NCBI RefSeq assembly: GCF_003633895.1
Contig: NZ_RBID01000002.1
Span: 42,024 to 106,023 of the forward strand
DNA: 64,000 nt
Reading direction: 5' to 3'
From: Vogesella indigofera
GTDB lineage: Bacteria > Pseudomonadota > Gammaproteobacteria > Burkholderiales > Chromobacteriaceae
Positions within the stretch are counted from its first letter, which is position 1. Every line of letters begins with the position of its first letter. Of the stretch, positions 21 through 64,000 are shown one piece after another. A program made the position numbers and the translations under genes. Below the pieces are notes generated by a model. That model was not told the DNA's origin and did no database searches. It saw only the letters and a program-made list of their open reading frames with translations.

Positions 21-54
21 ATTGCGGCCAACCTTGGACAAGGTTGGCCGCAAT
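21..54 (-). terminator. Inverted pair of the 12-mer forming a terminator hairpin
   Basis: Two perfect copies of the uptake-like word face each other: 24-35 reads GCGGCCAACCTT and 40-51 reads AAGGTTGGCCGC. The full arms are 15 bases (21-35 and 40-54) around a GGAC loop. On the minus strand the hairpin is followed by a five-T run (from A16-A12 on plus), so it should terminate the glycosyltransferase operon that ends at 91. This pairing of uptake words as terminators is typical of Neisseria and Haemophilus. Confidence 0.85.
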
Positions 55-90
55 CACAACAACTCAACGTTTTCAGAAACGACTCGGTCG

Positions 91-1137
91 CTACTCTTCC
101 CCAGCCGCCTGTGGCAGCAAGTCATCGATTGCATCCACAACAGCCGGCACAGGAATATGGGCAACCTGCCAGTCCTGTTCGGAACCGGAGGTCAGCACCC
201 GGTGCGGCACCTGCCACGGATACCAATGCTTGGTCTTTTTATCGAGATGCTCGAACAAGCCAACCACGCTGGCCCCGCTCCCTGCCGCGAGATGCAGACC
301 GCCGCCATCCGAACACACCGCCAGATCGGCACAAGAAAATGCTGCCATCAACTCCTTGACCGTCCGGGTGGGATAAAACACCAAACGCTCGTGCTCCGGG
401 AACTGGCTGCGAATGTAATCCGCTTTCTCATCATCCCCCGGATGACGAGGATCATCGGCGGCGCCTGGCGCCCACAACAACAGGAAATCCACGTCCCGCG
501 ACAAGCAGGTACGGATCACCTCGCAAAAATGCTCGACTGCCCAGACCCGGCTGTTCTCGCGGGCACTGATGTGCAAGGCGATAACCGGGCGCTGCCTGGT
601 GGAAAAACGTCGGGCCAAGACATCAGGCACCACAACAGCAGGCAAATTCAGCCTGCCAGGAGCTTGAGTCACACCAAGCGGTAACAAAAGTTCGGCAAGA
701 CACTCTACTTCATGACGGAATACATGATCCCGCGTGAAGGGGATCGGGTAGTCCACGATGCCATCATAGTCTGTCCCCTCCGACACAAAACTGATCACAT
801 GTTTCGGTCTGGCGGCCTTTGCCAGACGTACGGCATTCTTGGGATAACCCGAGCCGGCCACAATCGCGTAATCAAAATGCTCGCGCCGCAACGCAAGGTA
901 GGTCATCAGCTTGCGCCAGATTACCCGCACAACCGAATCCCCCGCTCCGCGGTGCTTCAGTTTGGTATAGAAGTACACGCCATCCAGCAGCGGGTGCCCA
1001 TCCAGCACGTCCTTGTTGTAGTCATTGACCAGTGCATAGATTGCTGCTTGCGGATATTTTTCACGCAGAGCTGCTATCAATGGCGTGGTACAAACCAGAT
1101 CGCCAATATTGTCACGGCGTATCACCAAAATCTTCAT
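91..1137 (-). CDS. Glycosyltransferase family 9 (heptosyltransferase-like)
   Basis: A 348-residue GT-B enzyme of the lipopolysaccharide heptosyltransferase family (GT9), expected to transfer a sugar from a nucleotide donor to the lipopolysaccharide core on the inner face of the cytoplasmic membrane. It begins MKILVIRRDNIGDLVCTTPL, the usual GT9 N-terminal nucleotide-binding start, and has the C-terminal donor-site segment CSDGGGLHLAAGSG near residue 275. A longer open frame exists upstream, but the ATG at 1137 matches the family start and overlaps the upstream ligase gene stop by four bases (ATGA), showing translational coupling. It is the last gene of the core operon. Which sugar it adds cannot be told from the sequence. 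Confidence 0.88.
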   Translation of the reverse strand: MKILVIRRDNIGDLVCTTPLIAALREKYPQAAIYALVNDYNKDVLDGHPLLDGVYFYTKLKHRGAGDSVVRVIWRKLMTYLALRREHFDYAIVAGSGYPKNAVRLAKAARPKHVISFVSEGTDYDGIVDYPIPFTRDHVFRHEVECLAELLLPLGVTQAPGRLNLPAVVVPDVLARRFSTRQRPVIALHISARENSRVWAVEHFCEVIRTCLSRDVDFLLLWAPGAADDPRHPGDDEKADYIRSQFPEHERLVFYPTRTVKELMAAFSCADLAVCSDGGGLHLAAGSGASVVGLFEHLDKKTKHWYPWQVPHRVLTSGSEQDWQVAHIPVPAVVDAIDDLLPQAAGEE

Positions 1138-2426: not shown

Positions 2427-3528
2427 TCAGGGCTTCTTTCGCTGCCGCCAGGATGTCCCCAACCGCAACAGTGCGGATACAGGCTCGATCACCCGTCTTG
2501 CAGGTATAAGGGGCGTTGAATACAAAGGCACACGGATAGCAGGGTGGCTGTTTCGACACGAAACGTACTTGCGGCCCCAGCGGTCGCTGCTCGCGAAAAT
2601 CCACCGGCCCGACGATCACGACCATAGGCACGTCGAAGGTATCCGCCAGATAGGTCAGACCGGAGTCGACGCCGATGAACAGCTTCAAGCGCTGCATCAG
2701 CGCCGGCAGCTCGTCCAGCTGGAAGGCGCCGGCGGCATTGATCACGCGTTCGGCGCCCTTCACGCGACCCACCACGGCAGCAGCACAGGGGCCGTCTTCC
2801 GGGCCGCCGATCAGCACCACCTGTCCCGGATAATCCTGCAACAGCCGCGTCACCAGCGCCGCCAGCAAGTCCTCGCCCAGCTCCTTCAGTTTGTTGGCGC
2901 TGGAGATCGCCAGTCCGATGGCGGAATGGTCAGGGGTAACACCCAGCCGGTCACACACGGTTTCGCCGCTGACGGCGATGGCCATTTTCTTGCGCAGGCC
3001 CATGGCGATGCCCTGCTGCTGCAACAGGCGCTGCTTGGTAGCCAGTACCAGTTCGCCCGGGCGATGCTGTTCGGTCAGGTCGATACAGTGGCGCAGCGCG
3101 GCCAGCGTGCGGCCAACCTTGGTCGGCATGATGGACAGCGTGCGCGGCACACCGGACCAGATCAGCCCGCACAGTATCGGTAGCGACGGTGACAGGTTGA
3201 CCGCCAGGTCGTAGCGCCCGCCAGCAATCAGCTGCGCCAGCCGCCATTTCCCCGCCCAGCCGCGCCAGGAGTCGGAGCGGATGGCGATGCAGTGGTCGAC
3301 CTCGCTCAGGCCGGCAATGATCTTGCCGGTGACCGGCGCGTGCAGCACGGTGAGTTGCGCGTCGGGATAGTGCTGCCGCAGCGCCAGGATCACCGGCGTG
3401 GCACACAGCATGTCGCCGATCTTGGCAGTCTGCACCAGCAGGATGCGCTCGATCTTGCCCCGGCGCTGCAAGCGCTTGGCCAGCCACCACCACGGCGCCA
3501 GCAGATAGGTCAGCAGCACGTAGATCAT
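2419..3528 (-). CDS. Glycosyltransferase family 9 (heptosyltransferase-like)
   Basis: A 369-residue GT9 enzyme. A short hydrophobic N-terminal stretch (MIYVLLTYLLAPWWWLAKRL) precedes the nucleotide-binding start RILLVQTAKIGDMLCATPV. The donor-site region GVDSGLTYLADTFDVPMVVIVGP is intact, and the C-terminus has the cysteine-rich segment PPCYPCAF and CKTGDRACI seen in a subset of lipopolysaccharide heptosyltransferases. It overlaps its upstream neighbour by four bases and its downstream neighbour by eight. The perfect word at 3109-3120 encodes KVGR here. The exact acceptor sugar is unknown. Confidence 0.87.
   Translation of the reverse strand: MIYVLLTYLLAPWWWLAKRLQRRGKIERILLVQTAKIGDMLCATPVILALRQHYPDAQLTVLHAPVTGKIIAGLSEVDHCIAIRSDSWRGWAGKWRLAQLIAGGRYDLAVNLSPSLPILCGLIWSGVPRTLSIMPTKVGRTLAALRHCIDLTEQHRPGELVLATKQRLLQQQGIAMGLRKKMAIAVSGETVCDRLGVTPDHSAIGLAISSANKLKELGEDLLAALVTRLLQDYPGQVVLIGGPEDGPCAAAVVGRVKGAERVINAAGAFQLDELPALMQRLKLFIGVDSGLTYLADTFDVPMVVIVGPVDFREQRPLGPQVRFVSKQPPCYPCAFVFNAPYTCKTGDRACIRTVAVGDILAAAKEALND
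3109..3120 (-). repeat. Perfect 12-mer in a GT9 gene
   Basis: AAGGTTGGCCGC on minus, encoding TKVGRT. Confidence 0.9.
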
Positions 3529-4736
3529 GGTTTGCGCGCCGCCTCCGCCAGAATGGCCTCGGTACCGGCCACGTAGCGGGCGATGGTGTACTGCGCCTTG
3601 ACCCGCACCTCCCCGGCCTGCCCCATGCGCTGACGCAGGCCGGCATCGGCCACCAGTTTAGCCAGCGCCTCGGCCAGCGCCGCGCTGTCGCCATACGGTA
3701 CCAGCAGGCCGCTGTCGCCATCGGCGACCAGCTCCTGCGAGCCAACCACGCGTGAGGCCACTACCGGCTTGGCCAGCAGCATCGCCTCCAGCAGCACCCG
3801 CGGCAGGCCCTCGCTTTGCGACACCAGCACGCAGACGTCCATCGCCGCGGTATAGGCCAGCGGCTGCGGCTGGAAGCCGGCAAACACCACCTGCCCGGCA
3901 ATGCCGAGGCTTGCGGCCAACCTTTCCAGTTCGGCGCGCTGCGGGCCGTCGCCGACCAACAGCAGGCGCACCGGCAGCTGGCGCCGCACCAGTTCGGCCG
4001 TCGCCTGCAGCAAGAAGCGCAGCCCCTTGCGTTCCACCAGTTGCCCGACCGCACCCAGCACGATTTCGTGCTCGCGACCTACCAGCAACGTCCCCCGCAC
4101 TGCAGCGCCATCCGGCAAGGTCTGCGCCGGGTCGATGCCGTTGAGCACCGCCACGCACTTGTCCGGCTGCACGCCGTGACGAACCAGTGCCCCGACCACG
4201 CCGTTGGAGACACCGATCACCTTGCTGGCCACCCGGTTGACGATGGCGGCATCGGCGGCATCCATCAGCGGCTCGATGCGGCAATGCTGCACTACCGGCA
4301 CGCCGCTCTGTTCGGCCGCCAGATAGCCTTCCAGGTTGGAACGCGGCTGGTTGTTCATGTACAGCAGGTCAAAGCGCTCGTCACGCAGCTGGCGCGCAAT
4401 CGCGGCGGCATTGGGCGCAATGCGCCAGGCGTGCTCGATGCGCTTGACCAGGGCCTGGCGCCAGGGCTTATGCCAGGCTAGCAGGCCACGCGCCAGTTCC
4501 TTGGCCAGCTTGGCCCACAGCGGCTGCTTGCGCTGCGGTAACAGCCGCAGCGGCATGCCGATAGCGGCCAGCTCGCGCGACAGCGTGCTCTGGCCCTTGC
4601 TGTAATCGCGGTAAAACAGGCAGGTGATGTCAAAACGCTCGCGATCGATGCGCTTGAGCAGCTCGAACAGGCTATTGGTCCCGCCGCCCCATTCATTGCC
4701 GGTATCCAGCAACAGGATTCTGGTTCGGGTTGTCAT
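3525..4736 (-). CDS. Glycosyltransferase family 4
   Basis: A 403-residue retaining GT-B glycosyltransferase. The N-terminal acceptor domain begins RILLLDTGNEWGGGTNSLFELL; the C-terminal GT4 domain has GQLVERKGLRFLLQA (about residue 235) and the donor-binding run SQSEGLPRVLLEAMLLAKPVVAS with the two glutamates of the EX7E motif. It should extend the lipopolysaccharide core in the cytoplasm. It is coupled to both neighbours by 4-base ATGA overlaps. A perfect copy of the repeated word at 3913-3924 encodes RLAA between the two domain halves. Confidence 0.88.
   Translation of the reverse strand: MTTRTRILLLDTGNEWGGGTNSLFELLKRIDRERFDITCLFYRDYSKGQSTLSRELAAIGMPLRLLPQRKQPLWAKLAKELARGLLAWHKPWRQALVKRIEHAWRIAPNAAAIARQLRDERFDLLYMNNQPRSNLEGYLAAEQSGVPVVQHCRIEPLMDAADAAIVNRVASKVIGVSNGVVGALVRHGVQPDKCVAVLNGIDPAQTLPDGAAVRGTLLVGREHEIVLGAVGQLVERKGLRFLLQATAELVRRQLPVRLLLVGDGPQRAELERLAASLGIAGQVVFAGFQPQPLAYTAAMDVCVLVSQSEGLPRVLLEAMLLAKPVVASRVVGSQELVADGDSGLLVPYGDSAALAEALAKLVADAGLRQRMGQAGEVRVKAQYTIARYVAGTEAILAEAARKP
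3913..3924 (-). repeat. Perfect 12-mer in a GT4 gene
   Basis: AAGGTTGGCCGC on minus, followed by AA, encoding ERLAAS. Confidence 0.9.
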
Positions 4737-9606: not shown

Positions 9607-9608
9607 TG

Positions 9609-10730
9609 TCACAGCAAGCGCCGGTAGCAAGCCAGCAAACGGCCGGCCATCTGCTCCAGCGTGAGGTCGGCGGTACTGGCCCGCGCCGCCGCGGCCAAGC
9701 TTGGCCACTCGGCACGGCTGGCCAGCCATTGGCCGAGCTGCTGGCGCAGGGTGGCGCCGTCCAGCGCATCGGCCACCCAGCCGTTGTCGCCGTCGCGGAT
9801 CAGCTCGGCGGCACCGCACTGCTGCGTGGTGAACACCGGCAAACCGCAGGCCAGCGCTTCGACACAGACATTGGGAAACGGGTCATACAAGGTCGGCAGG
9901 ATGAAGGCGTCGGCCATACCGTAAAACGGCTTGACGTCGTTTTGCGCGCCGGCAAAACGTACACGCGACGCGATGCCCAGCGTTGCGGCCAACCTTTGGT
10001 ACTGCGCGGCGTGCTTGTCCTTGCCGACAATCAGCAGCTGCACCTCGGGGTGCGGCACGATGGCCTGCAGCGCACGCGCCACGCCCTTGCGCTCGAAACC
10101 GGAGCCAACGTACAGCAGCAACGGTGCCGCTGGCGGAATCTGCCACTGTGCACGCATCGTGGCACGGTGTTCGCGCAGCGACGGATGGAAAGCCGCGGTA
10201 TCGACGCCATTGTAAATCACGGCAAAACGCGCGTCCGGCAAGCCGAAGTAGTGCTGGATCTCGCGCTTCACCATCTGCGAATTGCAGATCACCGTTTTCA
10301 GGCGCGGATGCAGGAACATGCGCCGCTCCATCCACTGCACGTAGTGGTGGTAGGGATTCAGTTGCAAGGCAATGCGGCCCCAGCGCGACAGCACCCGGCG
10401 ACGCAGTTGCAGCCAGTGGCGGTGCACGCCGTCGCCGGCGCGGTAGATGTCGCAGCCGGCGATGCGCTCGTGCGACTGCACCAGCTCGAAGCCTTCGCGC
10501 TGCCAGATCCGGCGCGCGGCGCAGGCAAAGCCCCAGTCGCGCCAGACGCTGCCGAGATAGAAAGGGTTGGCCGCAATGGCGCGCACACCGGAAAGCGATT
10601 CCCACTTGCGCGCGATCAGGTTCACTTCCAGTCCACCCTGCGCCGACAGCGCCGACAGCGCACGGCTGACAAAACGCTCGGCGCCGCCGGCCGGATTGTA
10701 TTTCTGCCGCACGATCACCAGTCGCGTCAT
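9609..10730 (-). CDS. Glycosyltransferase family 4, WaaG-like
   Basis: A 373-residue GT4 enzyme resembling the first core glucosyltransferase of lipopolysaccharide synthesis (WaaG). The N-terminus MTRLVIVRQKYNPAGGAERFVSRAL has the GGAE loop; the C-terminal domain has YVGSGFERKGVARALQA and PTLYDPFPNVCVEALACGLPVF with the EX7E glutamates. The ATG at 10730 overlaps the waaQ stop by four bases. The perfect word at 9985-9996 encodes RLAA and a 10-base match lies at 10565-10574. WaaG is likely by family resemblance but not proven. Confidence 0.8.
   Translation of the reverse strand: MTRLVIVRQKYNPAGGAERFVSRALSALSAQGGLEVNLIARKWESLSGVRAIAANPFYLGSVWRDWGFACAARRIWQREGFELVQSHERIAGCDIYRAGDGVHRHWLQLRRRVLSRWGRIALQLNPYHHYVQWMERRMFLHPRLKTVICNSQMVKREIQHYFGLPDARFAVIYNGVDTAAFHPSLREHRATMRAQWQIPPAAPLLLYVGSGFERKGVARALQAIVPHPEVQLLIVGKDKHAAQYQRLAATLGIASRVRFAGAQNDVKPFYGMADAFILPTLYDPFPNVCVEALACGLPVFTTQQCGAAELIRDGDNGWVADALDGATLRQQLGQWLASRAEWPSLAAAARASTADLTLEQMAGRLLACYRRLL
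9985..9996 (-). repeat. Perfect 12-mer in the WaaG-like gene
   Basis: AAGGTTGGCCGC on minus, followed by AA, encoding QRLAAT. Confidence 0.9.
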
Positions 10731-14355: not shown

Positions 14356-15771
14356 TCACTGCTGCGCGTCGGGAGTTACCGCCACTTCCTCGACGCTACG
14401 AAACCAGCCCAGCCGCGACGACAGCGCCACCACGTCGCCGACGATGATCAGCGCCGGCGAGGCGATGCCGCTCTGCGCGATCTTGGCCGGCAGGCTGGCC
14501 AGCGTGCCGACCACGGTACGCTGCTGCGCGGTGGTGGCACGGTGCACCACCGCCGCCGGCGTGGTCGCCGCCTTGCCGTGCGCGATGAAGGTGTCGCAGA
14601 TCTCGGCCGCCATCGCCAGCCCCATATATACCACCACCGTCTGATCCGGGCGCGTCAGTGCCGGCCAGTCTAGCTGAATGCTACCGTCTTTTTTATGACC
14701 TGTAACAAACACCACCGCCTGCGCGTGATCGCGGTGGGTCAGCGGGATGCCGGCGTAGGCGGCGGCACCACTGGCCGAGGTGATGCCGGGCACCACCTCG
14801 AACGGGATGCGGTGCTCGGCCAGCAGCTCGATTTCCTCGCCGCCACGGCCGAAGGTGAACGGATCGCCGCCCTTCAGCCGCAGCACGCGCTTGCCCTCTT
14901 GCGCTAGGCGCACCAGCAGGGTGTTGATCTCTTCCTGCGGCATGGTGTGGTTGGCGCGCTGCTTGCCGACGAAGATGCGTTCCGCATCGCGGCGTACCAG
15001 CTCCATCAGCTCCGGCGCCACCAGATTGTCGTACAGCACCACGTCGGCCTGCTGCATCAGGCGCAGGGCGCGGAAGGTGAGCAGGTCGGGGTTGCCGGGG
15101 CCGGCACCGACCAGGTACACCGCGCCGGACGGCGTGCTATCGCCTGCGGCCAACCTTTGCAGCAGGTCGGCCTCGGCGGCGCGCTCGTCGCCGTTCATCA
15201 CCTGCTCCGCCAGCGGCCCTTCCAGCACCGCCTCCCAGAACGCCCGCCGCTCCTCGACATTGCCGAAGCGCGCCTTGACCTGGTCGCGGAAACGCGCGGC
15301 AAACTGCGCCAGACGGCCGAAACCGGCCGGGATCAGGCTTTCCAGTCGCGCGCGGATCAGCCGCGCCAGCACCGGCACGCCGCCGCCGGTCGATACCGCG
15401 ATCACCAGCGGCGAGCGGTCGACGATCGCCGGCGTGATGTAGCTGGACAGCTCGGGGTCATCCACCACATTGACCGGAATGCCCAGCGCCTGCGCCGTCT
15501 GCGACACCAGGCGGTTGACCTCGCGCTCGTTGGTGGCGGCCACCACCAGCCGCTGGCCGCAGACCTGTGCCGGCTGGAAACAGGCGTCGATATGGCACAC
15601 CTCGCCGGCGGCCGCCATCGCGGCCAGCTCCGGCACCAGCTGCGGCGCCACCACCGTCAGCCGGGCGCCGGCCGATTGCAGCAGGCGCGCCTTGCGCACC
15701 GCCACCTCGCCGCCGCCGACCAGCAGGCACGGCTCGCCGGCAAGGCGCATGAAAATCGGAAAATACTCCAC
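14356..15771 (-). CDS. cysG: Siroheme synthase CysG
   Basis: A 471-residue trifunctional enzyme making siroheme for sulfite and nitrite reductases. The N-terminal half is the precorrin-2 dehydrogenase/ferrochelatase domain with the NAD site [16 protein letters not shown]; the C-terminal half is uroporphyrinogen-III methyltransferase with [15 protein letters not shown] and [17 protein letters not shown]. The GTG at 15771 is chosen because it follows AGGAG at good spacing and gives the family N-terminus ([10 protein letters not shown]); the longer ATG frame runs through the divergent gene's leader. A perfect copy of the word at 15146-15157 encodes RLAA in the linker between the halves. Confidence 0.94.
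15146..15157 (-). repeat. Perfect 12-mer in cysG
   Basis: AAGGTTGGCCGC on the minus strand, in the interdomain linker codons for QRLAAG. A place where sequence constraint is low. Confidence 0.9.
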
Positions 15772-17779: not shown

Positions 17780-17827
17780 AAAAAAGGTTGGCCGCAACAG
17801 CGTGCGCTGTTGCAGCCAACCTTTTGC
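17780..17827. terminator. Bidirectional terminator built from an inverted pair of the 12-mer
   Basis: A perfect AAGGTTGGCCGC at 17784-17795 pairs with an 11/12 copy at 17812-17823 (GCAGCCAACCTT). The arms AAAAGGTTGGCCGCAACAGCG and its complement have one mismatch, and A and T runs flank both sides, so it can terminate both the converging cyclase gene and polA. Confidence 0.82.
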
Positions 17828-26574: not shown

Positions 26575-28499
<1,925 letters not shown>

Positions 28500-39227: not shown

Positions 39228-39881
39228 ATGGCCGACAGCACCATCCTCGCCAAGCCGCTGGCCCTGCACTGGCAACAGCCCGGCCCGCGCCTGTTCTCCG
39301 CCATCAAGGGGCTGCTGTTCCTGGTCTGCCTGCTGCCGCTGGCGCAGCTGCTGTGGCACACGCTGGCAGGCCAGGCGGTCAACCCGATCGAGGACCTGAC
39401 CCGTGGCCTCGGCACCTGGACGCTGCGCTTCTTGCTGCTCACGCTGTGCGTATCGCCCTTGCGCGCGCTGGGCGCCCCTGGCTGGCTGCTGCGCCTGCGC
39501 CGCATGCTGGGGCTGTACGCGTTCTTCTACGCCTGCCTGCACCTGCTGACCTATCTGTGGCTGGACCAGTTCTTCGACTGGGCCGCCATCGTGCGCGACA
39601 TCGTCAAGCGGCCGTTCATCACCGTCGGCATGCTCGCCTTCGGGCTGCTGCTGCCGCTGGCGATCACCTCCAGCGACGGCTGGATCCGCCGCCTGAAGCG
39701 CAACTGGGGCAAGCTGCACCGCCTGGTCTACGTCATCGCGCCGCTGGGGGTGCTGCACTACCTGTGGCTGGTGAAGCGCGACCTCCAGTCGCCGCTGATC
39801 TATGCCGCCATTCTCGCCGTGCTGCTGCTGTGGCGAGTATGGCGATACTTGCGGCCAACGTTGGCCGCACGGGTAAAATAG
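39228..39881 (+). CDS. msrQ: Heme-binding membrane subunit MsrQ
   Basis: A 217-residue ferric-reductase-like b-type cytochrome with six membrane helices, the electron donor to MsrP. Candidate heme histidines lie in FYACLHLLTYLW and LHRLVYVIAPLGVLHYLW. Length is normal. The end of the gene carries an 18-base palindrome made of two overlapping inverted cores of the repeated word (39851-39868), encoding LRPTLAA. Confidence 0.92.
   Translation: MADSTILAKPLALHWQQPGPRLFSAIKGLLFLVCLLPLAQLLWHTLAGQAVNPIEDLTRGLGTWTLRFLLLTLCVSPLRALGAPGWLLRLRRMLGLYAFFYACLHLLTYLWLDQFFDWAAIVRDIVKRPFITVGMLAFGLLLPLAITSSDGWIRRLKRNWGKLHRLVYVIAPLGVLHYLWLVKRDLQSPLIYAAILAVLLLWRVWRYLRPTLAARVK
39851..39868. repeat. Perfect palindrome of two inverted core words in msrQ
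   Basis: GCGGCCAAC directly joined to GTTGGCCGC inside the last codons of msrQ. The self-complementary arrangement could act as an overlapping terminator stem, though without a T-run. Confidence 0.75.
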
Positions 39882-42243: not shown

Positions 42244-42266
42244 TGTCTTGCTGCTGCGGCCAACGT

Positions 42267-46537: not shown

Positions 46538-47148
46538 CAATGGATGAATTCCGTCAACTCGACCTCAAAAACCTGCCGGATTTGCCACTCGGACCGCAGA
46601 TCAGCAGTCTGGTCGTCATGATTGCCGCCATCCTGGGGCTGGCCTACTACTTTGTGTTTGCCGACCTGCAGGACCAGATCGAGCGCCAGCAAGCCAAAGA
46701 AGTCCAGCTGAAGGAAAGCTTCCTCGACAAGAAGCGCCAGGTTGCCAATTTGGCCGCACTGGAAAACCAGCTGAAGGAGATCGAATCGTCTTTTGGTGCC
46801 CTACTCAAGCAGCTGCCAACCAAGGCGGAAATGCCTGCCCTGCTCACCGAAATCAACCAGGCCGGGGTTGGCCGCGGCCTGCTGTTCGAGCTGTTCCGCC
46901 CTGGCAGCGAAACCAAGGCGGCACAAATCGCCACCCTGCCGATCCAGATTCGCCTCAGCGGCAGCTATGGCGAGCTGGCGACCTTCGTCAATGACGTGGC
47001 GCAGCTGTCACGCATCGTGACCATCGGCGACATTACCCTGAGTCCGAACGGCGGCGCCAAGGAAGACCGCCTGCAGCTGCAGGCCACCGCCAAAACCTAT
47101 CGTGCCCTGGAGGCCAGCGAACAGACGGCCAAGGCCGGTAAACCATGA
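46534..47148 (+). CDS. pilO: Type IV pilus assembly protein PilO
   Basis: A 204-residue bitopic partner of PilN: a cytoplasmic stretch, a membrane helix (about 24-46), a coiled coil and a periplasmic domain containing QAGVGRGLLFELFRPG. The VGR there comes from a 10-base match to the repeated word (46866-46875). Overlaps pilP by four bases. Confidence 0.93.
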   Translation: MTMDEFRQLDLKNLPDLPLGPQISSLVVMIAAILGLAYYFVFADLQDQIERQQAKEVQLKESFLDKKRQVANLAALENQLKEIESSFGALLKQLPTKAEMPALLTEINQAGVGRGLLFELFRPGSETKAAQIATLPIQIRLSGSYGELATFVNDVAQLSRIVTIGDITLSPNGGAKEDRLQLQATAKTYRALEASEQTAKAGKP

Positions 47149-47681
47149 TGAAAACAGCCCGCCAACGTCTCGTCATCATCCTGCCCTGCCTGCTGCTACT
47201 GAGCGCCTGCGGCGCCGAGCCGGAAAGCATCGATCAATGGATGCAACACGCCGGCAAGGATCTGCATGGCAAGGTCGAGCCCTTGCCACCGCTGCAGCCC
47301 TATGAGCCTTACCAGTTTCAAAGCGCCCAGCTGGGCTCGCCGTTTGATCCGGCACGGCTGCAGCTGGCGCGCAACAAGGTCAAGGGGCTGTTCAACAACA
47401 ACCGGCCACGCGAGGTACTGGAAAACTACGAGCTGAGCCAGCTCAAGCTGACCGGCACCCTACGCATCAACAAACAGTATTTCGGCCTGATCCAGACGCC
47501 CGACAACGGCATATACCGCGTGCGGCCCGGCAGTTTTGTCGGCCCCAACTTTGGCATCGTACGCAAAGTCAGCGAGACCGAAGTGGTACTGGAAGAAACC
47601 GTGGAAAACATCAATGGGGAGTGGGTACAACAAGAAAACACGTTGTACCTGCTACAGCAGGAACAAGGGGCAAAACCATGA
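47145..47681 (+). CDS. pilP: Type IV pilus lipoprotein PilP
   Basis: A 178-residue lipoprotein that links the inner-membrane PilNO complex to the PilQ secretin. The lipobox is LLSACGAEP; an unstructured Pro-rich linker leads to the small beta domain LKLTGTLRINKQYFGLIQTPDNGIY. Overlaps pilQ by four bases. Confidence 0.93.
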   Translation: MMKTARQRLVIILPCLLLLSACGAEPESIDQWMQHAGKDLHGKVEPLPPLQPYEPYQFQSAQLGSPFDPARLQLARNKVKGLFNNNRPREVLENYELSQLKLTGTLRINKQYFGLIQTPDNGIYRVRPGSFVGPNFGIVRKVSETEVVLEETVENINGEWVQQENTLYLLQQEQGAKP

Positions 47682-49819
47682 ACAAGCATTACCTGAAAAC
47701 ACTGGCCAGCAGCCTGCTCCTGGCCGGCCTCTCCCCGGCCCTGCTCGCCGCCAATGCCATCACCGCCATCGACCTCGTCAACAACAGCCAGAACGAACCG
47801 GTGCTGGCCATCAGTTTTGCCGCGGCGCCAACCACGCCGGCCAGCTTTTCCATCATCAACCCGCCGCGCATCGCCTTCGACTTCAAGGACACCAGGAACC
47901 AGACCGGCAAGAACCTGCTGCCCTTCAACAGCGAGCTGCTCAATGCCGCCACCATCGTCGAAAGCAGCGACCGCACGCGGCTGGTGCTCAATCTCAACAA
48001 GAGCAGCGCACACAGCACCCGCATTGACGGCAAGCAGTTGCTGGTGAGCTTCAACGCCGCCGACAAGCCGCTCGCCGCCGACAGCAGCCCGCTTGCCAGT
48101 CCCGCTGCGGCCAACCTTGGCATGGCCCGCCAGGTGGCCAATGTCGACTTCCGCCGCGGCAGCAAAGGCGAGGCGCGCATCATCGTCGACCTGCCGACCA
48201 GCAACAGCCCGGTGGACATCAAGCGCGAAGGCAACAACCTGATCGTGGACCTGGCCGGCATCAAGCTGCCGCGCCACCTCGAGCGGCGTCTGGATGTCAC
48301 CGACTTTGCCACCCCGAGCAGCCGCGTCGATGCCGTCAACCAGAACAGCGGCAGCCGCATTGCCATCCAGTCCGGCGGCAACTGGGAATACTCCTCCTAC
48401 CAGACCGAACGCCAGCTGGTGGTCGAGATTCGTGCCGTATCGCAGGAAGAGGCCGAGGCCAACCTGCTGGCACAGGGCAAGACCAATTACAAAGGGCAAC
48501 GCCTGTCGCTCAACTTCCAGACCGTCGACGTGCGCTCGCTGCTGCAGGTCATCGCCGAGTTCACCGGCCTGAACATCATCACCAGCGACAGCGTGACCGG
48601 CAGCCTCAGCCTGCGCCTCAATGACGTCCCCTGGGACCAGGCACTGGACCTGATCCTGACCCAGAAAAACCTGGAAAAACGCCAGGTCGGCAACGTCATC
48701 CGCATCGCGCCGCGCAGCGAGCTGGTCAGCATCGAACGCCAGATCGCCGAAGCCAACCGCATCAAGAAGACATCGGAACCGTTCATCACCGAGACCTTCA
48801 CCATCCGCTATCGTGCCGCCGAAGAAATCAAGGAAGCGATCAAGGATCTGGGTCGGTTTAGCCAAGTGGCGGAAACAGAAAGGGAAAGCAACAACAACGA
48901 GACTAGCGCCAACTCCCGCTCCGCCACCACTGTCAACAACGCCCTGACGCTGATGGCAGACAGCCGCTCCAACCGCCTGATTGCCCGCGCCGGCGTGTCA
49001 ATGATCGAGGAAGTGCGCAAGGTCATCGAGATTCTGGACGTGCCGCTACGCCAGGTATTGATCGAGGCGCGCATTGTCGAGGCCAAGGACAACTTCCAGC
49101 GCGATCTGGGCGTACGCCTTGGCGTCACTAAAGTCGGTGGCGACACTGCCATCGGCAACTGGAATGGAGAAGAAGGCTCAGGCATGCCCATTCCAGGCAC
49201 CGGCAGTGTGCTTGGAGCACCCTCGGTATGGAACCCCAACATTGACCTGCCTGCCGGCCTTGCTGGCGCAAGCATCGGCGCCATTTTCAAGAACGCCAGC
49301 ACCCTGATTGGCCTCGAACTGTCCGCAATGCAGGCCGAGGACAAGGGCAAGGTGGTGTCCAGCCCGCGCATCCTGACCGCGGACCGCACCAAGGCGACCA
49401 TCACCGAAGGTACCGAAATTCCCTACCAGTCCATCGACGACAATGGCAAGTCGACCACTACCTTCAAGAAAGCCAACCTGAGCTTGTCGGTGACGCCCCA
49501 GGTCACGCCGGAAGACGACATCATCATGGAACTCAACATCACCAAGGACACACCGAATACCAAACTGTCGCTCGATGCCGGCCCGGCCATCGACAACAAG
49601 ACTGTCGACACCCAGGTGCGCGTCGAAAATGGCGGTACCGTCGTGATTGGCGGCATTTATGTACAGGAAGAAAACAATGTCGAAAACAAAGTGCCGTTAC
49701 TGGCCGACATCCCGTTGCTTGGCGTTCTGTTCCGCAATAAGTCCGTCACCAACAACCGCCGCGAACTACTGATTTTCATCACGCCGCGGATTGTCGAAAA
49801 CGAACTGATTGCCCGCTAA
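47678..49819 (+). CDS. pilQ: Type IV pilus secretin PilQ
   Basis: A 713-residue outer-membrane secretin through which pili, and in competent Neisseriales also incoming DNA, pass. After the signal peptide there are two AMIN peptidoglycan-binding domains (about 27-120 and 150-260), the STN/NolW periplasmic ring domains and the secretin core with ILDVPLRQVLIEARIVEA, GKVVSSPRILT and VPLLADIPLLG. The perfect word at 48107-48118 sits in the linker between the AMIN domains (AAANLG). The ATG at 47678 overlaps pilP. Confidence 0.96.
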   Translation: MNKHYLKTLASSLLLAGLSPALLAANAITAIDLVNNSQNEPVLAISFAAAPTTPASFSIINPPRIAFDFKDTRNQTGKNLLPFNSELLNAATIVESSDRTRLVLNLNKSSAHSTRIDGKQLLVSFNAADKPLAADSSPLASPAAANLGMARQVANVDFRRGSKGEARIIVDLPTSNSPVDIKREGNNLIVDLAGIKLPRHLERRLDVTDFATPSSRVDAVNQNSGSRIAIQSGGNWEYSSYQTERQLVVEIRAVSQEEAEANLLAQGKTNYKGQRLSLNFQTVDVRSLLQVIAEFTGLNIITSDSVTGSLSLRLNDVPWDQALDLILTQKNLEKRQVGNVIRIAPRSELVSIERQIAEANRIKKTSEPFITETFTIRYRAAEEIKEAIKDLGRFSQVAETERESNNNETSANSRSATTVNNALTLMADSRSNRLIARAGVSMIEEVRKVIEILDVPLRQVLIEARIVEAKDNFQRDLGVRLGVTKVGGDTAIGNWNGEEGSGMPIPGTGSVLGAPSVWNPNIDLPAGLAGASIGAIFKNASTLIGLELSAMQAEDKGKVVSSPRILTADRTKATITEGTEIPYQSIDDNGKSTTTFKKANLSLSVTPQVTPEDDIIMELNITKDTPNTKLSLDAGPAIDNKTVDTQVRVENGGTVVIGGIYVQEENNVENKVPLLADIPLLGVLFRNKSVTNNRRELLIFITPRIVENELIAR
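48107..48118 (-). repeat. Perfect 12-mer in pilQ
   Basis: GCGGCCAACCTT on plus, encoding AANLG in the inter-AMIN linker. Confidence 0.9.
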
Positions 49820-52133: not shown

Positions 52134-52562
52134 CTAGTGCACCAGCTCGCACTGCTCCACGCCGTCCCGCCGAATGCAACGCTTGATGATCCCGGTTTGC
52201 GTCAGGGAAATCACCTCCGTTTCGTCCGCCACTTGCAAGCGCGTGGCACGCAGCACGTAGTAACCGTCGTCGGTGTTGCGTGGCAAGGAGCCGAATGCCA
52301 GCTGGTACTGCGCCACCCCGCCGGGTGGCGAAAGCGAGACCGGCAACGCCGGCCAGCGTGTCGGCGTCAGCTTGTAGCTGCCGTGGCGATGGTAAAACTC
52401 TTCCAGAAAGATCGCATTTTCCTGCAGCAGGGCGATCGCCTGCGCCCGCTGGCTGCGCTGCACATAGCCCTGATACGCCGGCAAGGCTGCCGCCGACAGG
52501 ATGCCGAGCAATGCCAGCACCAACAGCAGCTCAAGCAGGGTGAAGCCGCGCCGCGCTAGCAT
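52134..52562 (-). CDS. Type IV pilin-like protein (minor pilin or ComP-like)
   Basis: A 142-residue prepilin. The class III leader MLARRG is cleaved before FTLLELLLVLALLGILSA, with Glu at mature position 5. The globular part is short and ends KRCIRRDGVEQCELVH, a two-cysteine disulfide region next to an Arg-rich turn. Size and layout resemble minor pilins such as PilE paralogues and Neisseria ComP, the uptake-sequence receptor; the assignment to ComP is inference. It overlaps the FimT-like gene upstream by seven bases. Confidence 0.82.
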   Translation of the reverse strand: MLARRGFTLLELLLVLALLGILSAAALPAYQGYVQRSQRAQAIALLQENAIFLEEFYHRHGSYKLTPTRWPALPVSLSPPGGVAQYQLAFGSLPRNTDDGYYVLRATRLQVADETEVISLTQTGIIKRCIRRDGVEQCELVH

Positions 52563-52990
52563 GGCAGCGCGCGGATGCGCATCGGCACCGATACCAGCAG
52601 CTGCGGCGCCACCGGCGTAGCTTTCAGCGGCAGCACCTGCAACGCCTCCTTGGAGTCGTAGAGCGCCAGCCGGCCACCCGCCCGATCCTGGAACAACAGC
52701 ACGCCCTCACTCCAGTGTCGCTCACCGGCACTAAGCGGCGGATTGGCAAAACAGCCCTGCGGATCCTGATTCAGCTTCATGTTGACGGCACAGACATACA
52801 CCGGCCGCTGCCGCAGCAGGGCATCGTTCCTGGCGCGCAACAGCAGCACGTTCAGGCGGCTGATATAAGCCTGCAGCACCCGGTCCCGCACCATGCCGCT
52901 CCACGCCGGGATGGCAAACGACAGCACAATGCCGCCGAGCAGCAGCGTCATCAACAGTTGCAACAGTGAAAAGCCATCAACCCGCGACAT
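52556..52990 (-). CDS. FimT/GspH-like pseudopilin
   Basis: A 144-residue prepilin of the GspH/FimT family: leader MSRVDG, then FSLLQLLMTLLLGGIVLSFAIP. The helix after it (YISRLNVLLLRARNDALLRQRPVYVC) is the family hallmark. Unusually, mature position 5 is Gln in place of the near-invariant Glu. The C-terminus ends VPMRIRALPC; in DNA-binding FimT proteins of Gammaproteobacteria an RxR at this place contacts DNA. It is followed by the pilin-like gene. Confidence 0.82.
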   Translation of the reverse strand: MSRVDGFSLLQLLMTLLLGGIVLSFAIPAWSGMVRDRVLQAYISRLNVLLLRARNDALLRQRPVYVCAVNMKLNQDPQGCFANPPLSAGERHWSEGVLLFQDRAGGRLALYDSKEALQVLPLKATPVAPQLLVSVPMRIRALPC

Positions 52991-54560: not shown

Positions 54561-54595
54561 TGCGGCCAACCTTGCGACACGCAACGTTGGCCGCA
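54561..54595. terminator. Inverted pair of the 12-mer between gabT and gabD
   Basis: A perfect GCGGCCAACCTT (54562-54573) faces GTTGGCCGC (54586-54594). Arms TGCGGCCAAC/GTTGGCCGCA continue through TTGCG/CGCAA, giving a 15-pair stem with a single C-C mismatch and an ACA loop. There is no T-run, so it may attenuate or shield mRNA ends rather than fully terminate. Confidence 0.75.
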
Positions 54596-56150: not shown

Positions 56151-56182
56151 CATTGGTGCGCCGCAAACCCGCGGCGCCGGTG

Positions 56183-58543
56183 TCAGAGCTTGCCGGCGTG
56201 CAGTACCAGACAGTTGCGGCCACGCTGCTTGGCCTGGTAGCAGGCGTCGTCGGCACGGGACAGTACCGGCTGCGCCCGCTCGTCCTGCGGCTGGATCATG
56301 GTCACGCCGATGCTGGCGCTGATGCGGAACGCGCGCTCGCCCAGATAGACGATGTGGGCGTCGATCGCCTGCAGCAGCTCGCGCAGCATGCGCTCGGCGA
56401 CTTCCAGCTCGCAGTGGCACAGCAGGATGGCGAACTCGTCGCCGCCGAGGCGGGCGACGATGTCGCTGCTGCGCACCTGCTGCTGCATGATGCGCGCCAC
56501 ATCCTGCAACAGCAGGTCGCCGCCCTGCTGGCCGGCGCTGTCGTTGACCGCCTTGAAATGATCGAGATCGATCATCGCCAGCACGTGCGGCTGGTAGTGC
56601 ACGCGGTTGTCGTCGAGCACCTCGCCCAGCGCGGCAAGGAAACCGCGACGGTTGCGCAATCCGGTCAGCACGTCGTGGCTGGCCTCCCAGCGCTGCTGCT
56701 GCATGCGCTGCTGCCGTTCGCCGTCGTCGCGCAGCACCACCACCTTGTAGCCCTGCAGCGCGCCGCTGCCGGCCATCACCGACAGCGTCAGCAGCACCGG
56801 CTGCACCCGCATGTCGCGGCTGAGCAGATCCAGCGCCAGCGTCTTGCCGGCGGCATCGCGCTCGATGTCGCGCAGCGGCACCGCCAGTCCGGTCTCCGGG
56901 CTGACCAGATTCATGAACACGCCCAGCAGGCGGCCAAGCACGTCCGAGGCCGGCACCCCGAACAGCGCCAGCGCCGGCGGGTTGGCGTATTCCACCTCGT
57001 CCATGCGGTTGGTCAGCACCACCGCGTCGCTGATCGAGCCCAGCAGCAGCAGGCTGCGCTCACGCTCGGCCTGCAGGTGGCCGCGCGCCTCCTCGCGGGC
57101 GCTGACATCGCTGACCAGGCCGAGGAAGCGGCGTTCACCGCCGCTGGCGGCCAGCTCGCTGAAGCGCAGCTCCACCATCACCCGGCAGCCGTCGCGATGC
57201 CGCAGCCGGCACAGCAACTCGAAGCCGCTGCCGGTGGCCAGCAATTGCTGCCACTGTCCGGCCACCTGCGGCAGGCTGTCGGGGTGGATCTCGTCCAGCC
57301 AGTGACGGCCGAGCCAGTTGCCGATCTCCGCCGCCGGCAAGCCGGCGACACGCATGCTGGCCGGATTGAGCGATTGCAGGCGCGCCTGCGCATCCACCAC
57401 CAGCACCCCCATCGGCGACACCTCGTTCAGGGTGCTGAACAGCGCGTCGCGCGCGGCGAGCTGCTGCTCGCAGTCGGCGCGGCGACGGCAGGCGGCCGCG
57501 ACCTCGTGCGCGATGCGCTGCAGCTCGCGGCAGCCCAGCGCCGCTGTCGTGGCGTAGGGGTCACGCTGCAGCACCGTGAGCTGGTTCTGCAACCGGCCCA
57601 GCGGCCGCAGCAGGCGGCGCATGCCCCACCACGCCAGCGGCAACGACAGCAGCAGCGCGACCAGCAGCAGCAACAGGTAGTGGCCACCCAGCACGCGCGC
57701 CGGCTGCATTACCTCGTGCAGCGGCAGCACCACCCCGAGCAGCCACGGCACATTGCGCAGCCGCTGGTAGACCTGCAGCGCCGGCACGCCATGGCTGTCG
57801 CCCACCGCGGCCTGGCCAGCGGCGCCGCCGAGGGCACGCTGCAGCAACGGGTCGGCCGTCGCCACCGGCATGCTGTCGCCGGCATCGGCGTGCAGGATGG
57901 CGAGCTGGCTGCGTACACTATGGATGGTCAGGAAACCGCCCTGCCCGATAGCGATGTTTTTCAGTTCGCCGAAGAACTCCGGCGAATACAATTCCAGGCT
58001 GCCGCCGAGCACCCCGGCAAGCTGGCCCTCGGCGCTGAACACCGGCGCGGTGAACACGATCACGGTGCGCTTCAGCCCGCCACTCATCGGCACCGGCTCC
58101 GATACCTGCGGCCGCAGGGAGTCGCGGGTGGCGCGGAAGTAGTCCTGATCGGCGACATTGAGACCGAGCCGTCCCGGCAACCCCGGGTAGTCGGCGATGA
58201 CATTGCCCTTGCGGTCGTACAGCAGCACGCTGCTGAACATGCCCTTCAGATAGCGGAAGCGGGCAATCAGCTCTGCGCCCTGCTGCTCGAACTGCTCTGG
58301 CGCCAGCTGCAGGTTGGCCGCAGCCTGCTCCAGCAGCACCTGCCGCGTGCGCACGCGGTCGTCGACATCGGCGGCCAACCTTGCGGCCAAGGCTTCCAGG
58401 CTGCGCGCCTGCACCTCGCGTAGCGCGCTGCGGCTCTGCACATAGGCGCTGCCGCCGGCCAGCAGCAGCAGCAGCGCCAGGAACAGGCCGCCCAGCACCA
58501 GCAGGCGCAGGCGCAGCGTCGACAACAGCACACTCTTGAACAT
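56183..58543 (-). CDS. Membrane diguanylate cyclase with periplasmic sensor and PAS domains
   Basis: A 786-residue protein. An N-terminal helix (about 12-32) and a second near residue 300 enclose a dCache-like periplasmic sensor of about 265 residues; two PAS domains (about 375-500 and 505-625) and a GGDEF domain with intact GGDEF near residue 700 follow. RSSD five residues upstream is a complete inhibition site. No EAL domain. The word occurs near the N-terminus at 58371-58382 (perfect) and 58312-58321 (10-base). Confidence 0.9.
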   Translation of the reverse strand: MFKSVLLSTLRLRLLVLGGLFLALLLLLAGGSAYVQSRSALREVQARSLEALAARLAADVDDRVRTRQVLLEQAAANLQLAPEQFEQQGAELIARFRYLKGMFSSVLLYDRKGNVIADYPGLPGRLGLNVADQDYFRATRDSLRPQVSEPVPMSGGLKRTVIVFTAPVFSAEGQLAGVLGGSLELYSPEFFGELKNIAIGQGGFLTIHSVRSQLAILHADAGDSMPVATADPLLQRALGGAAGQAAVGDSHGVPALQVYQRLRNVPWLLGVVLPLHEVMQPARVLGGHYLLLLLVALLLSLPLAWWGMRRLLRPLGRLQNQLTVLQRDPYATTAALGCRELQRIAHEVAAACRRRADCEQQLAARDALFSTLNEVSPMGVLVVDAQARLQSLNPASMRVAGLPAAEIGNWLGRHWLDEIHPDSLPQVAGQWQQLLATGSGFELLCRLRHRDGCRVMVELRFSELAASGGERRFLGLVSDVSAREEARGHLQAERERSLLLLGSISDAVVLTNRMDEVEYANPPALALFGVPASDVLGRLLGVFMNLVSPETGLAVPLRDIERDAAGKTLALDLLSRDMRVQPVLLTLSVMAGSGALQGYKVVVLRDDGERQQRMQQQRWEASHDVLTGLRNRRGFLAALGEVLDDNRVHYQPHVLAMIDLDHFKAVNDSAGQQGGDLLLQDVARIMQQQVRSSDIVARLGGDEFAILLCHCELEVAERMLRELLQAIDAHIVYLGERAFRISASIGVTMIQPQDERAQPVLSRADDACYQAKQRGRNCLVLHAGKL
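58371..58394 (-). repeat. Tandem 12-mer (one perfect, one degenerate)
   Basis: GCGGCCAACCTT is followed at once by GCGGCCAAGGCT on plus, giving the coding run ALAARLAADV in the periplasmic helix after the first membrane segment. Confidence 0.8.
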
Positions 58544-58597
58544 GACCCGGCTCGATACCCCTCGGCAACGGTTGGCGATGACAGGCGGCGGTGCCGC

Positions 58598-60031: not shown

Positions 60032-60104
60032 GCGTCTGGCGTCGATACTGCCTTGTAAAACCGCCGATTTTACTCCGACGCCAGAAGCATAGCTAACAGT
60101 TAGG

Positions 60105-61271: not shown

Positions 61272-61273
61272 GT

Positions 61274-61675: not shown

Positions 61676-61770
61676 TCTGTTTCCGCTCCGTTGGTATCCC
61701 GACCACTTCATGGTAAAAACATTCACGGCCCCGTCCAAGGGCCAGTTTATGACGGCGAAGGGGAACCACT

Positions 61771-63234
61771 TTGCAAGCAGCATGGATCAGCGAGGCGCTG
61801 GCCGCCAGCCTGGAGCGGCACAGCAAGGAAGGGCTGTCACGACAGCTGATGCGGCTGCTGCGACAGTGGATCAGCGACGGGCGCCTGGCCGGCGACACGC
61901 TGCTACCGGCCAGTCGCGAGCTGGCGGCCAGCCTCAAGGTTGGCCGCAACACGGTGCTGAACGCCTATGAACAGCTGCAGGCAGAAGGCTACCTGAGCAC
62001 GCGCCACGGGGCCGGCACCTATGTCACCGACCTGTTCTGCCAGCGGCAGCAGACGCCACTGCCGGCACGACGCCTGCCCCTGGGACTGTCGGCGCGCGGC
62101 GCCAGCCTGTTCGCCAGCTGCCGCCTGCCACAGGGGCTGAGCGGTGCCTTCGCCCCGGGGGTGCCGGAGATCCGCCAGTTCCCGCATCACTGCTGGCAGC
62201 AGCTGCTGTCGCGCCACCAGCGGCAAGCTCATCCGGCCATGCTCAACTACACCGCCGACGGCGGCCTGCCGGCACTGCGCGAGGTACTGGCGGAGTACCT
62301 GCAGCTGTCGCGTTCGGTGCGCTGCCGGCCGGAACAGATCCTGATCACCCACGGCGCGCAGCAAGGGCTGGAACTGACAGCCCGGATGCTGGCCGACCCT
62401 GGCGACATCGCCTGGGTGGAAGAGCCCGGCTATGCTGGCGCCCATGCCGCGTTCCGCGGCGCCGGCCTGACGCTGCTGCCGGCACCGGTCGACGCCGAAG
62501 GTCTGGCGCCGCAGCTAGTCGCCGATCCGCGCCCGCCACGCCTGATCTACACCACACCGTCGCACCAGTATCCGTCCGGGGTGGTGATGAGCCTGTCGCG
62601 GCGACTGACCCTGCTGCAGCACGCCGAACAGGCACAGGCCTGGATCATAGAGGACGACTACGACAGCGAATTCCGCTACCGCTCGCAACCGCTGCCGGCG
62701 CTGCAGGGCATGGCACCGGACGAGCGGGTGATCTACGTCGGCACCTTCAGCAAGGTAATGTACCCCAGCCTGCGCATTGGCTATCTGGTGGTGCCGGATG
62801 CGTTGATCGACGCCTTTCGCAGCGCCAATGCCCGCCTGTACCGGGAAGGGCAGTATCCGGTGCAGGCGGCGCTGGCCGACTTTATCGCCGCCGGACACTT
62901 CGCCCGCCACGTGCGCCGCATGCGCGAACTGTATCGTGAGAGGCAACAGCTACTGCGCCAGGCACTGGCCGACTCCGCTGCCGAGCGGCTGGCTTTGTCG
63001 CCCGGCGAAGCCGGCATGCACCTGGTGGCCAGCCTGCCAGCCGGCGTGCAGGAGCAGGCACTGAGTCAGGCTGCCGCGACACAGGGCGTCTGGCTGCGGC
63101 CACTGGCGCACCACTATCTGGCGACGCCGCAGCAGCAAGGCCTGGTACTGGGCTACGCCGGCGTCGACCAGCAGGCGATCCGGCATGGCACACAGGTACT
63201 GGCCAGCCTGCTTCAGGAACAAGGGAAAAAATGA
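61771..63234 (+). CDS. MocR/PdxR-family transcriptional regulator
   Basis: A 487-residue GntR-type winged helix (about 20-90) fused to an aminotransferase-like PLP domain (about 125-480). ASRELAASLKVGRNTVLNAYEQL is the recognition helix region, and YVGTFSKVMYPSLRIGY places the PLP lysine at residue 328. A TTG start at 61771 is used because AAGGGG lies seven bases upstream and no ATG precedes the HTH. The perfect word at 61936-61947 encodes KVGR within the HTH. Probably controls the divergent rhodanese-GNAT pair. Confidence 0.9.
   Translation: MQAAWISEALAASLERHSKEGLSRQLMRLLRQWISDGRLAGDTLLPASRELAASLKVGRNTVLNAYEQLQAEGYLSTRHGAGTYVTDLFCQRQQTPLPARRLPLGLSARGASLFASCRLPQGLSGAFAPGVPEIRQFPHHCWQQLLSRHQRQAHPAMLNYTADGGLPALREVLAEYLQLSRSVRCRPEQILITHGAQQGLELTARMLADPGDIAWVEEPGYAGAHAAFRGAGLTLLPAPVDAEGLAPQLVADPRPPRLIYTTPSHQYPSGVVMSLSRRLTLLQHAEQAQAWIIEDDYDSEFRYRSQPLPALQGMAPDERVIYVGTFSKVMYPSLRIGYLVVPDALIDAFRSANARLYREGQYPVQAALADFIAAGHFARHVRRMRELYRERQQLLRQALADSAAERLALSPGEAGMHLVASLPAGVQEQALSQAAATQGVWLRPLAHHYLATPQQQGLVLGYAGVDQQAIRHGTQVLASLLQEQGKK
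61936..61947 (+). repeat. Perfect 12-mer in the mocR-type gene
   Basis: AAGGTTGGCCGC on plus, encoding KVGR in the DNA-binding helix. Confidence 0.9.
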
Positions 63235-63734
63235 TGAACAAGCCGCCACTTCTGGTCAGCGCCTGCCTGCTGGGACAACCGGTACGGTATGACGGCCACG
63301 GCAAGGCCATGCCATCACCGCTGCTATTCGAATTGGCCCGTCGCTATCAGCTGCTCAGCATCTGCCCGGAGTGCCAGGGCGGCTTGCCGACGCCACGTCC
63401 AGCGGCCGAAATCAGTGGCGGTGACGGTGGTGACGGTGGTGACGTACTCGACGGCCGCGCCCGCGTTATCACACAGACAGGGCAGGATGTCAGCCGCGCC
63501 TTCATCGACGGCGCGCGACAGGCTCTCGACAGCGCCATCCGCCACGGCTGCCGGCAGGCACTGCTCAAGGCCAATAGCCCGTCCTGCGGCAACCGGCAGA
63601 TCCATAGCGGCCGCTTCGACCAACAGTTACAGCCCGGCAGCGGCGTGACGGCTGCCCTGCTGCAAGGGCACGGCATTAGCGTATTCAATGAGAACGAGAT
63701 GGACAGGCTGCTGCTCACCAAGCCGCAACCATAG
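63231..63734 (+). CDS. DUF523 family protein
   Basis: A 167-residue protein of the DUF523 family: VSACLLGQPVRYDGHGK, ICPECQGGLPTPRPAAEI and LLKANSPSCGNRQIHSG contain the conserved cysteines (a probable metal or cluster site). Function unknown. The start overlaps the mocR-type stop (ATGA). Residues 63-71 are a GGDGGDGGD run from a 9-base tandem repeat at 63421-63444. Confidence 0.87.
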   Translation: MMNKPPLLVSACLLGQPVRYDGHGKAMPSPLLFELARRYQLLSICPECQGGLPTPRPAAEISGGDGGDGGDVLDGRARVITQTGQDVSRAFIDGARQALDSAIRHGCRQALLKANSPSCGNRQIHSGRFDQQLQPGSGVTAALLQGHGISVFNENEMDRLLLTKPQP

Positions 63735-64000
63735 CGGCCGACAAGCGCGGCCTGGCTCCCTGCCGGCCGCGGCGGTGTGACACCCCGTTAACAGCAGGTG
63801 ATCACCGTGCAGACGAATAACTACCACCCCAAGCGGAAGCCGTGCAGGGCTTGGCAGCCAGATAAAGCGCATCACGGGGAATGGCAATCGGATAGAAGCT
63901 GCGGGCCACAAGGTTGGCCGCAGCGGCGTTGTGCAGGCCGCGGCCACGCACCTCGCGGGCGACCCCGTTGGATCAGCGGCGGGGCGAGATGGGGAATTGA
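63735..64000. other. Window end without a recognised gene
   Basis: 266 bases with no convincing coding region on either strand. A perfect AAGGTTGGCCGC lies at 63910-63921. A minus-strand gene end cannot be excluded because the window stops here. Confidence 0.5.
63910..63921 (+). repeat. Perfect 12-mer in the terminal noncoding stretch
   Basis: AAGGTTGGCCGC preceded by AC and followed by AGC. Confidence 0.85.

Follow-up and report, generated by a model that had tools for sequence, protein, structure and literature searches.

The window considered here is a stretch of 64,000 nucleotides from Vogesella indigofera (contig NZ_RBID01000002.1, positions 42,024 to 106,023). It holds dispersed copies of a 12-base word, AAGGTTGGCCGC, together with pilP, the secretin gene pilQ (whose ATG position was derived from its open reading frame) and the genes for a ComP-like minor type IV pilin and a FimT/GspH-like pseudopilin (Table 1). 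A preliminary description of the window had put the word forward as a candidate DNA uptake sequence (DUS). It is very likely that AAGGTTGGCCGC is indeed the DUS of Vogesella, with the ComP-like pilin encoded in the same window as its predicted receptor on type IV pili, so that DNA of the cell's own kind would be favoured. A second form of the word, dialects in sister genera and the pilin gene go beyond what that description contained.

Table 1. Copies of the word, its variants and pilus genes in the window.
Feature	Position	Strand	Basis
AAGGTTGGCCGC, arm of inverted pair with 40-51	24..35	-	exact match
AAGGTTGGCCGC, second arm of inverted pair	40..51	+	exact match
AAGGTTGGCCGC	3109..3120	-	exact match
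AAGGTTGGCCGC	3913..3924	-	exact match
AAGGTTGGCCGC	9985..9996	-	exact match
AAGGTTGGCCGC	15146..15157	-	exact match
AAGGTTGGCCGC	17784..17795	+	exact match
AAGGTTGGCCGC	19593..19604	-	exact match
AAGGTTGGCCGC	24473..24484	-	exact match
AAGGTTGGCCGC	27920..27931	-	exact match
Variant AACGTTGGCCGC	28878..28889	+	context of GTTGGCCGC sites
AAGGTTGGCCGC	30569..30580	-	exact match
AAGGTTGGCCGC	33104..33115	-	exact match
AAGGTTGGCCGC	34130..34141	+	exact match
Palindrome GCGGCCAACGTTGGCCGC, overlap of two variant copies placed head-to-head	39851..39868	.	
Variant AACGTTGGCCGC	42256..42267	-	context of GTTGGCCGC sites
pilP	47145..47681	+	PF04351
pilQ, secretin, predicted to pass pili and DNA through the outer membrane	47678..49819	+	PF00263, PF11741
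AAGGTTGGCCGC, within pilQ	48107..48118	-	exact match
Minor type IV pilin of 142 aa, ComP-like, predicted to read the word	52134..52562	-	PF16732, fold
FimT/GspH-like pseudopilin adjoining the ComP-like gene, basic globular part (isoelectric point, pI, 10)	52556..52990	-	
AAGGTTGGCCGC, first arm of inverted pair	54562..54573	-	exact match
Variant AACGTTGGCCGC, second arm of pair with 54562..54573	54583..54594	+	
AAGGTTGGCCGC	58371..58382	-	exact match
AAGGTTGGCCGC	61936..61947	+	exact match
AAGGTTGGCCGC	63910..63921	+	exact match

Abundance, forms and conservation of the word

How far does the word exceed chance? An exact-match search of the window found 18 copies, 5 forward and 13 reverse, all where the preliminary description had placed them, and 100 shuffles of the window gave a mean of 0.02 (maximum 1), in agreement with the chance expectation given there. 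The shorter GGTTGGCCGC is found at 32 sites (shuffle mean 0.52), i.e., the perfect copies and the 14 further core sites already listed. For the shortest word, GTTGGCCGC, the total is 46 sites, 14 beyond those of GGTTGGCCGC and not 13 as counted earlier. A trailing A follows 15 of the 18 window copies, which is the earlier figure. Across the whole genome (3,618,773 bases in 20 contigs), AAGGTTGGCCGC occurs 1,050 times, 535 forward and 515 reverse, and the reversed word, used as a control in the same count, gives 0 copies. The suspected genome-wide enrichment in both orientations was thus borne out.

The k-mer statistics were computed over 464 kb of the genome's own sequence (contig C1 1-400,000 and the window), and the whole genome was covered by pattern counts. 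Among the commonest 12-mers ranked in the 464 kb, none has a higher Markov z-score than AGGTTGGCCGCA (120 copies against 1.5 expected), as foreseen for the word in the preliminary description; among 14-base words, some less common repeats unrelated to it score just as high. Unrelated dispersed repeats in the same sequence include TTTTCGCCTTGTCT (nine copies), CTCACGCGAGACAA (six) and TCTAGCTCGCGAGA (five).

The copies share the consensus (C/a)AA(G/c)GTTGGCCGCA(a), and the flanks outside it carry little or no signal beyond about 15 positions. Positions 4-12 are near-invariant: each of 27 single changes is found in 0-2 copies, compared with 102 for the unchanged sequence. A second form, AACGTTGGCCGC, is present in the same genome, with 56 copies in the 464 kb and 477 genome-wide. 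The working unit would be about 14 bases long, (C)AA(G/C)GTTGGCCGCA(A), in which GTTGGCCGC would be rigid and the ends softer.

The sites are also conserved. When the 23 AASGTTGGCCGC sites of the window were compared with three relatives, they were fully conserved in 19 of 22, 17 of 20 and 15 of 20 alignable cases, versus 50, 43 and 37% of neighbouring 12-mers (p 0.0004, 0.0001 and 0.0006, respectively).

Placement, pairing and strand

Genes were predicted with a purpose-written gene caller. Among 113 perfect copies, 61 are intergenic, 48 lie inside genes, in both orientations, and 4 sit on an edge (binomial p 1e-16), with the intergenic share being an upper bound because 81% of the sequence was called coding. 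The intergenic copies are divided among convergent gaps (24 copies in 10.3 kb of gap), codirectional gaps (32 in 55.7 kb) and divergent gaps (2 in 20.8 kb), and 3 are unplaced at sequence ends. This placement behind genes matches that of DUS at terminators, as described in the available portion of PMC3630211, and differs from that of promoter operators.

Copies often come in pairs. Of 26 neighbours that start at most 45 bases apart, 8 are head-to-head, 9 are tail-to-tail and 9 overlap as the palindrome GCGGCCAACGTTGGCCGC; direct-orientation pairs number 0 of 26. A run of at least four T lies by the stem in 8 of the 26 pairs, all within the 17 that do not overlap, compared with 4% at random positions. 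The first pair of the window (24/40) forms a stem of 15 base pairs that ends in a GTTTTTG tail on the minus strand. Some inverted pairs behind genes probably double as transcription terminators.

Is the word then a terminator, or an mRNA 3'-end element, that has been spread by transcription and has no role in uptake? The enrichment behind genes, the inverted pairs and the T-runs point in this direction. However, the 48 copies inside genes occur in both orientations, and of the 169 AASGTTGGCCGC copies counted over the 464 kb, 117 belong to no close pair. Terminator-like sites as a class show no excess, with 13 versus 12 in shuffles (20 kb of the window). Moreover, a stem requires complementarity only, and not a fixed word with genus-specific dialects. 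An origin in transcription alone is therefore very unlikely.

A dispersed selfish repeat, REP-like or an insertion target, would likewise give scattered copies and inverted pairs. Against it stand the little or no conserved sequence past about 15 positions, the 48 of 113 copies inside genes and the clean dialects between genera, and this origin is considered highly improbable.

Strand polarity was assessed with the GC-skew strand as a proxy for the replichore. In the sample of the window's own genome, the G-rich strand has 113 copies of the fuller pattern ASGTTGGCCGCA and the C-rich strand has 101, and the counts in samples of five other Vogesella genomes are 30/35, 24/27, 18/12, 14/7 and 12/10; none of these biases is significant. 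The preliminary description had held that strong polarity would point to a Chi-like or segregation motif, and its absence counts against one. A role in chromosome maintenance, such as that of Chi or KOPS, could be argued from the word being abundant, short and genus-specific, and from a mild lean of AAGGTTGGCCGC alone to the G-rich strand (57 forward versus 38 reverse copies on C1; 13 versus 5 in the window, where the reverse copies prevail). The lean vanishes in the ASGTTGGCCGCA count, and the inverted pairs and the scarcity of the word in blocks of low GC content do not fit such a motif. The known Chi and KOPS words are also shorter than 12-14 bases. A maintenance motif is highly improbable.

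Dialects in related genera

Is the word confined to Vogesella? In a search of 61 genomes, AAGGTTGGCCGC was found 485-1,050 times in all 13 Vogesella genomes, which include V. margarita (G003), V. fluminis (G012) and V. alkaliphila (G005), and 0-9 times in the 48 others, so the word is common to one clade, as had been anticipated. The second form, AACGTTGGCCGC, follows the same boundary, with 118-477 copies in the 13 Vogesella genomes and 0-7 in 24 others searched.

Related genera have their own words. The family here is GTDB family f1 of the genomes compared; NCBI places Vogesella and Gulbenkiania in Chromobacteriaceae and Crenobacter in Neisseriaceae, though all belong to the same GTDB family. 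In 40-kb samples, the top word is AGGTTGGCCGAA(G/C) in genera g2, g3 and Gulbenkiania, and A(G/C)GTTGGCCGAG(C) in g4, the genus of Crenobacter. In the g10 sample, a tandem repeat came out on top and the tags were visible by pattern only. No abundant word, related or other, stood out in the 40-kb samples of g6 (genome G030), g7, g8 and g9. The AGGTTGGCCGAA dialect is carried by Gulbenkiania and four further genera, and the Crenobacter dialect is AGGTTGGCCGAG; Crenobacter luteus (G015) and Gulbenkiania mobilis (G016) were recognised by equal dialect counts.

A pattern covering the dialects, ASGTTGGCCGMR, occurs 123-1,780 times in 23 of 37 family genomes, 4-33 times in the other 14 and 0-20 times in 24 genomes from other families of the order. 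The loaded genomes are the 13 of Vogesella, 3 of 3 in g2, 2 of 2 in g3, 2 of 2 in g4, 1 of 1 in g5, 1 of 4 in g6 and 1 of 1 in g10; the lowest among them, G029 with 123 copies, is 84% complete. In the other genera of the family, the system would have been either lost or never present.

AGGTTGGCCGAA was searched in all 61 family genomes, 24 of which were searched for this word only. It is found 0 times in the genome of the window, 0-6 times in other Vogesella and only 0-2 times per genome in 19 genomes of g7, 6 of g8 and 4 of g9. In g6, G017 has 417 copies and nine other genomes have 0-5. With one species loaded and the nine others apparently not, this is a gain or loss within a genus. By ASGTTGGCCGMR, the counts in g6 are 521 in G017 versus 10-15 in three congeners (G025, G030 and G034). 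A separate observation concerns G024, from Crenobacter's genus, where 8 AGGTTGGCCGAA copies, with two pairs 42 bases apart, lie on one strand within 7 kb (C1 1158709-1165804); the genome's own form ends in GAG, and the cluster is either a repeat gene or imported DNA.

A pattern spanning the CTG and CCG cores was counted across the order in 399 genomes, of which 13 are from the family. Outside the family only G231 stands out, with 893 copies; the next highest count is 65, and both genomes belong to f44, which we take to be Neisseriaceae.

How do these words compare with known DUS? The available portion of PMC3630211 (Frye et al. 2013) describes eight dialects, each of which carries CTG at positions +6 to +8 and A at position +10. 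According to it, core changes nearly abolish transformation, and Laribacter, Lutiella, Pseudogulbenkiania and Chromobacterium have no obvious DUS. The words found here resemble the DUS in that portion in being high-copy 12-mers on both strands, with dialects that follow genera and with inverted pairs linked to terminators. The coexistence of two dialects with overlapping dyads, given there for Simonsiella, is paralleled by the AAG and AAC forms of Vogesella. In contrast to Neisseriaceae DUS, all dialects found here read CCG at +6 to +8, so the absence of a CTG core stated in the preliminary description holds in register, and they differ further in having G at +5. At +10, Vogesella and the GAA genera have A, as in Neisseriaceae DUS, whereas Crenobacter has G.

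The register comparison used seven known dialects, with wadDUS left out. AGGTTGGCCGAA agrees with mucDUS and simDUS at 9 of 12 positions (permutation p 0.0035 in register and 0.02 when shifts and strands are allowed), and the Vogesella and Crenobacter forms agree with known dialects at 8 of 12 (p 0.017 and 0.014 in register; 0.14 and 0.11 with shifts and strands). Positions whose base also occurs in at least one known dialect number 10 of 12 in both the Vogesella and GAA forms and 9 of 12 in the Crenobacter form (p 0.0017, 0.0017 and 0.007). This likeness of sequence suggests a common origin with Neisseriaceae DUS, in which the core would have changed from CTG to CCG. The best reading is a dialect group with CCG where the eight described dialects carry an essential CTG, and for part of the family we infer the same system in the dialects AGGTTGGCCGCA, ...GAA and ...GAG.

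Pasteurellaceae uptake signal sequences also occur in both orientations and in high copy, as in the kind of system proposed here; their word and clade are unrelated.

In the literature searched, from which most subscription papers fell outside coverage, no report of the words as uptake sequences was found. Papers that contain them treat other subjects by title, and the match in the available part of PMC3868556 lies in a cloning primer. As far as their available parts go, PMC12061091, PMC7371117, PMC10715097 and PMC3868556 concern CTG dialects or Neisseriaceae, and the models of word reading by pilins in PMC12061091 cover proteins of Neisseria, Bergeriella, Kingella and Eikenella with one CTG core.

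A predicted receptor and the proposed uptake system

Which protein would read the word? The ComP-like pilin belongs to the ComP_DUS family (PF16732, 46 bits against a cut-off of 27.3) and is modelled with the ComP fold: its globular part gives sequence matches to the ComP structures 2nba, 2m3k and 5hz7, and its model (pLDDT 89.6) has 5hz7 as best fold match. These structures, of ComP from N. meningitidis and N. subflava (PMC4906244), represent a minor pilin that shares with it the stretch L.ENA.F.E.FY...G..K.T.T.WP.LP. The two differ in sequence, with 21-31% identity in fold alignments, and at the C-terminus, where a short two-cysteine loop stands in place of the DD region with its two disulfides. 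The short loop and the pair of C-terminal cysteines are found in 21 of 21 ComP-like sequences, and 2 of 21 have a third cysteine in the globular part; the four-cysteine arrangement of Neisseria is therefore absent. Going by homology, the ComP-like pilin is predicted to be the receptor of the word. Of the competence machinery, the genome also encodes PilP, PilQ, ComEC and DprA.

The domain name by itself overcalls DUS receptors, since PF16732 is above its cut-off in 55 of 61 genomes and a PilE-like minor pilin on contig C5 scores 70 bits versus the 46 of the ComP-like protein. This second PF16732 pilin (C5 200979-201236; L077 10877-11296) was rejected as the receptor, as its sequence matches PilE/PilA structures and not ComP; the pilin-like open reading frames adjoining it are read as a minor-pilin cluster. 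Reading a receptor code from individual residues (K in G.[YF]K, NTD.G) does not work for G017 and G021, and the net charge of the pilin does not correspond with presence of the word. In the ComP tree, Vogesella sits on a long, well supported branch. The tree does not decide between gain and loss: three changes are required to account for the loaded and unloaded rows, and some of the forks are still open, with a bootstrap that had not settled.

Could a DUS be read by another minor pilin, such as the FimT/GspH-like neighbour? Three points weigh against the ComP-like pilin as receptor: the globular part of the neighbour is basic (charge about +7, pI 9.8-10.0), FimT-mediated DNA uptake was reported in 2022 (in the available part of PMC8897410), and some ComP-like globular domains are acidic in loaded genera. 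On the other side, the FimT-like gene is 35 residues shorter here than in a sister species and the word is still abundant, no second open reading frame with a pilin motif was found in the four loaded non-Vogesella loci checked (L093, L096, L100 and L103), and it is the ComP-like pilin that has a proven DUS receptor as its relative, in sequence as well as in fold. Another reader is thus unlikely, though less so than the alternatives to uptake discussed above. The window copy of the FimT/GspH-like protein matches no Pfam family, and its longer sister scores 17.8 bits against the GspH cut-off of 21. The protein has 144 residues here and 179 in the sister species (L083 1923-2459, minus strand). 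The 35 missing residues lie between two QLLVSVP repeats, which makes an in-frame deletion between direct repeats likely.

In the proposed mechanism, a pilus bearing the ComP-like pilin would bind a tagged fragment and retract through PilQ, ComEC would pass a single strand into the cell, and DprA and RecA would recombine it. Tagged fragments would be favoured, and recombination would both keep and spread the tag. The observations cover the enrichment, dialects, placement and conservation of the word and the homology of the pilin; DNA binding, a preference in uptake and the identity of the receptor are inferred. On balance it is probable that uptake guided by DUS predates the CTG-core Neisseriaceae and extends beyond them, and that Vogesella, Gulbenkiania, Crenobacter and their kin form a CCG group with ComP readers lacking the DD region.

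If this is true, the CTG core and the two-disulfide reading head are traits of one branch and not universal. Vogesella, Gulbenkiania, Crenobacter and their kin, g6 included, would offer natural experiments on the joint change of word and receptor. A second diverged series of words and receptors would part essential from inherited features and permit receptor swaps across dialects. The proposal predicts natural competence in genera for which no such report was found in the literature searched, and the word would mark barriers to gene exchange and foreign DNA in these genomes.

Keeping and spreading of the tag by recombination would explain its accumulation as well as its scarcity in DNA of low GC content. 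Four 20-kb blocks of C1 (GC content 0.56-0.60) make up 20% of the length and contain 8 of its 146 sites (p 6e-7, a generous value because the blocks were chosen after the site table had been seen). From their composition, these blocks are possibly foreign. They lie at C1 40000-80000 and 360000-400000 (L023-L024 and L039-L040), where the few tags are accompanied by several of the largest gaps in the gene calls.

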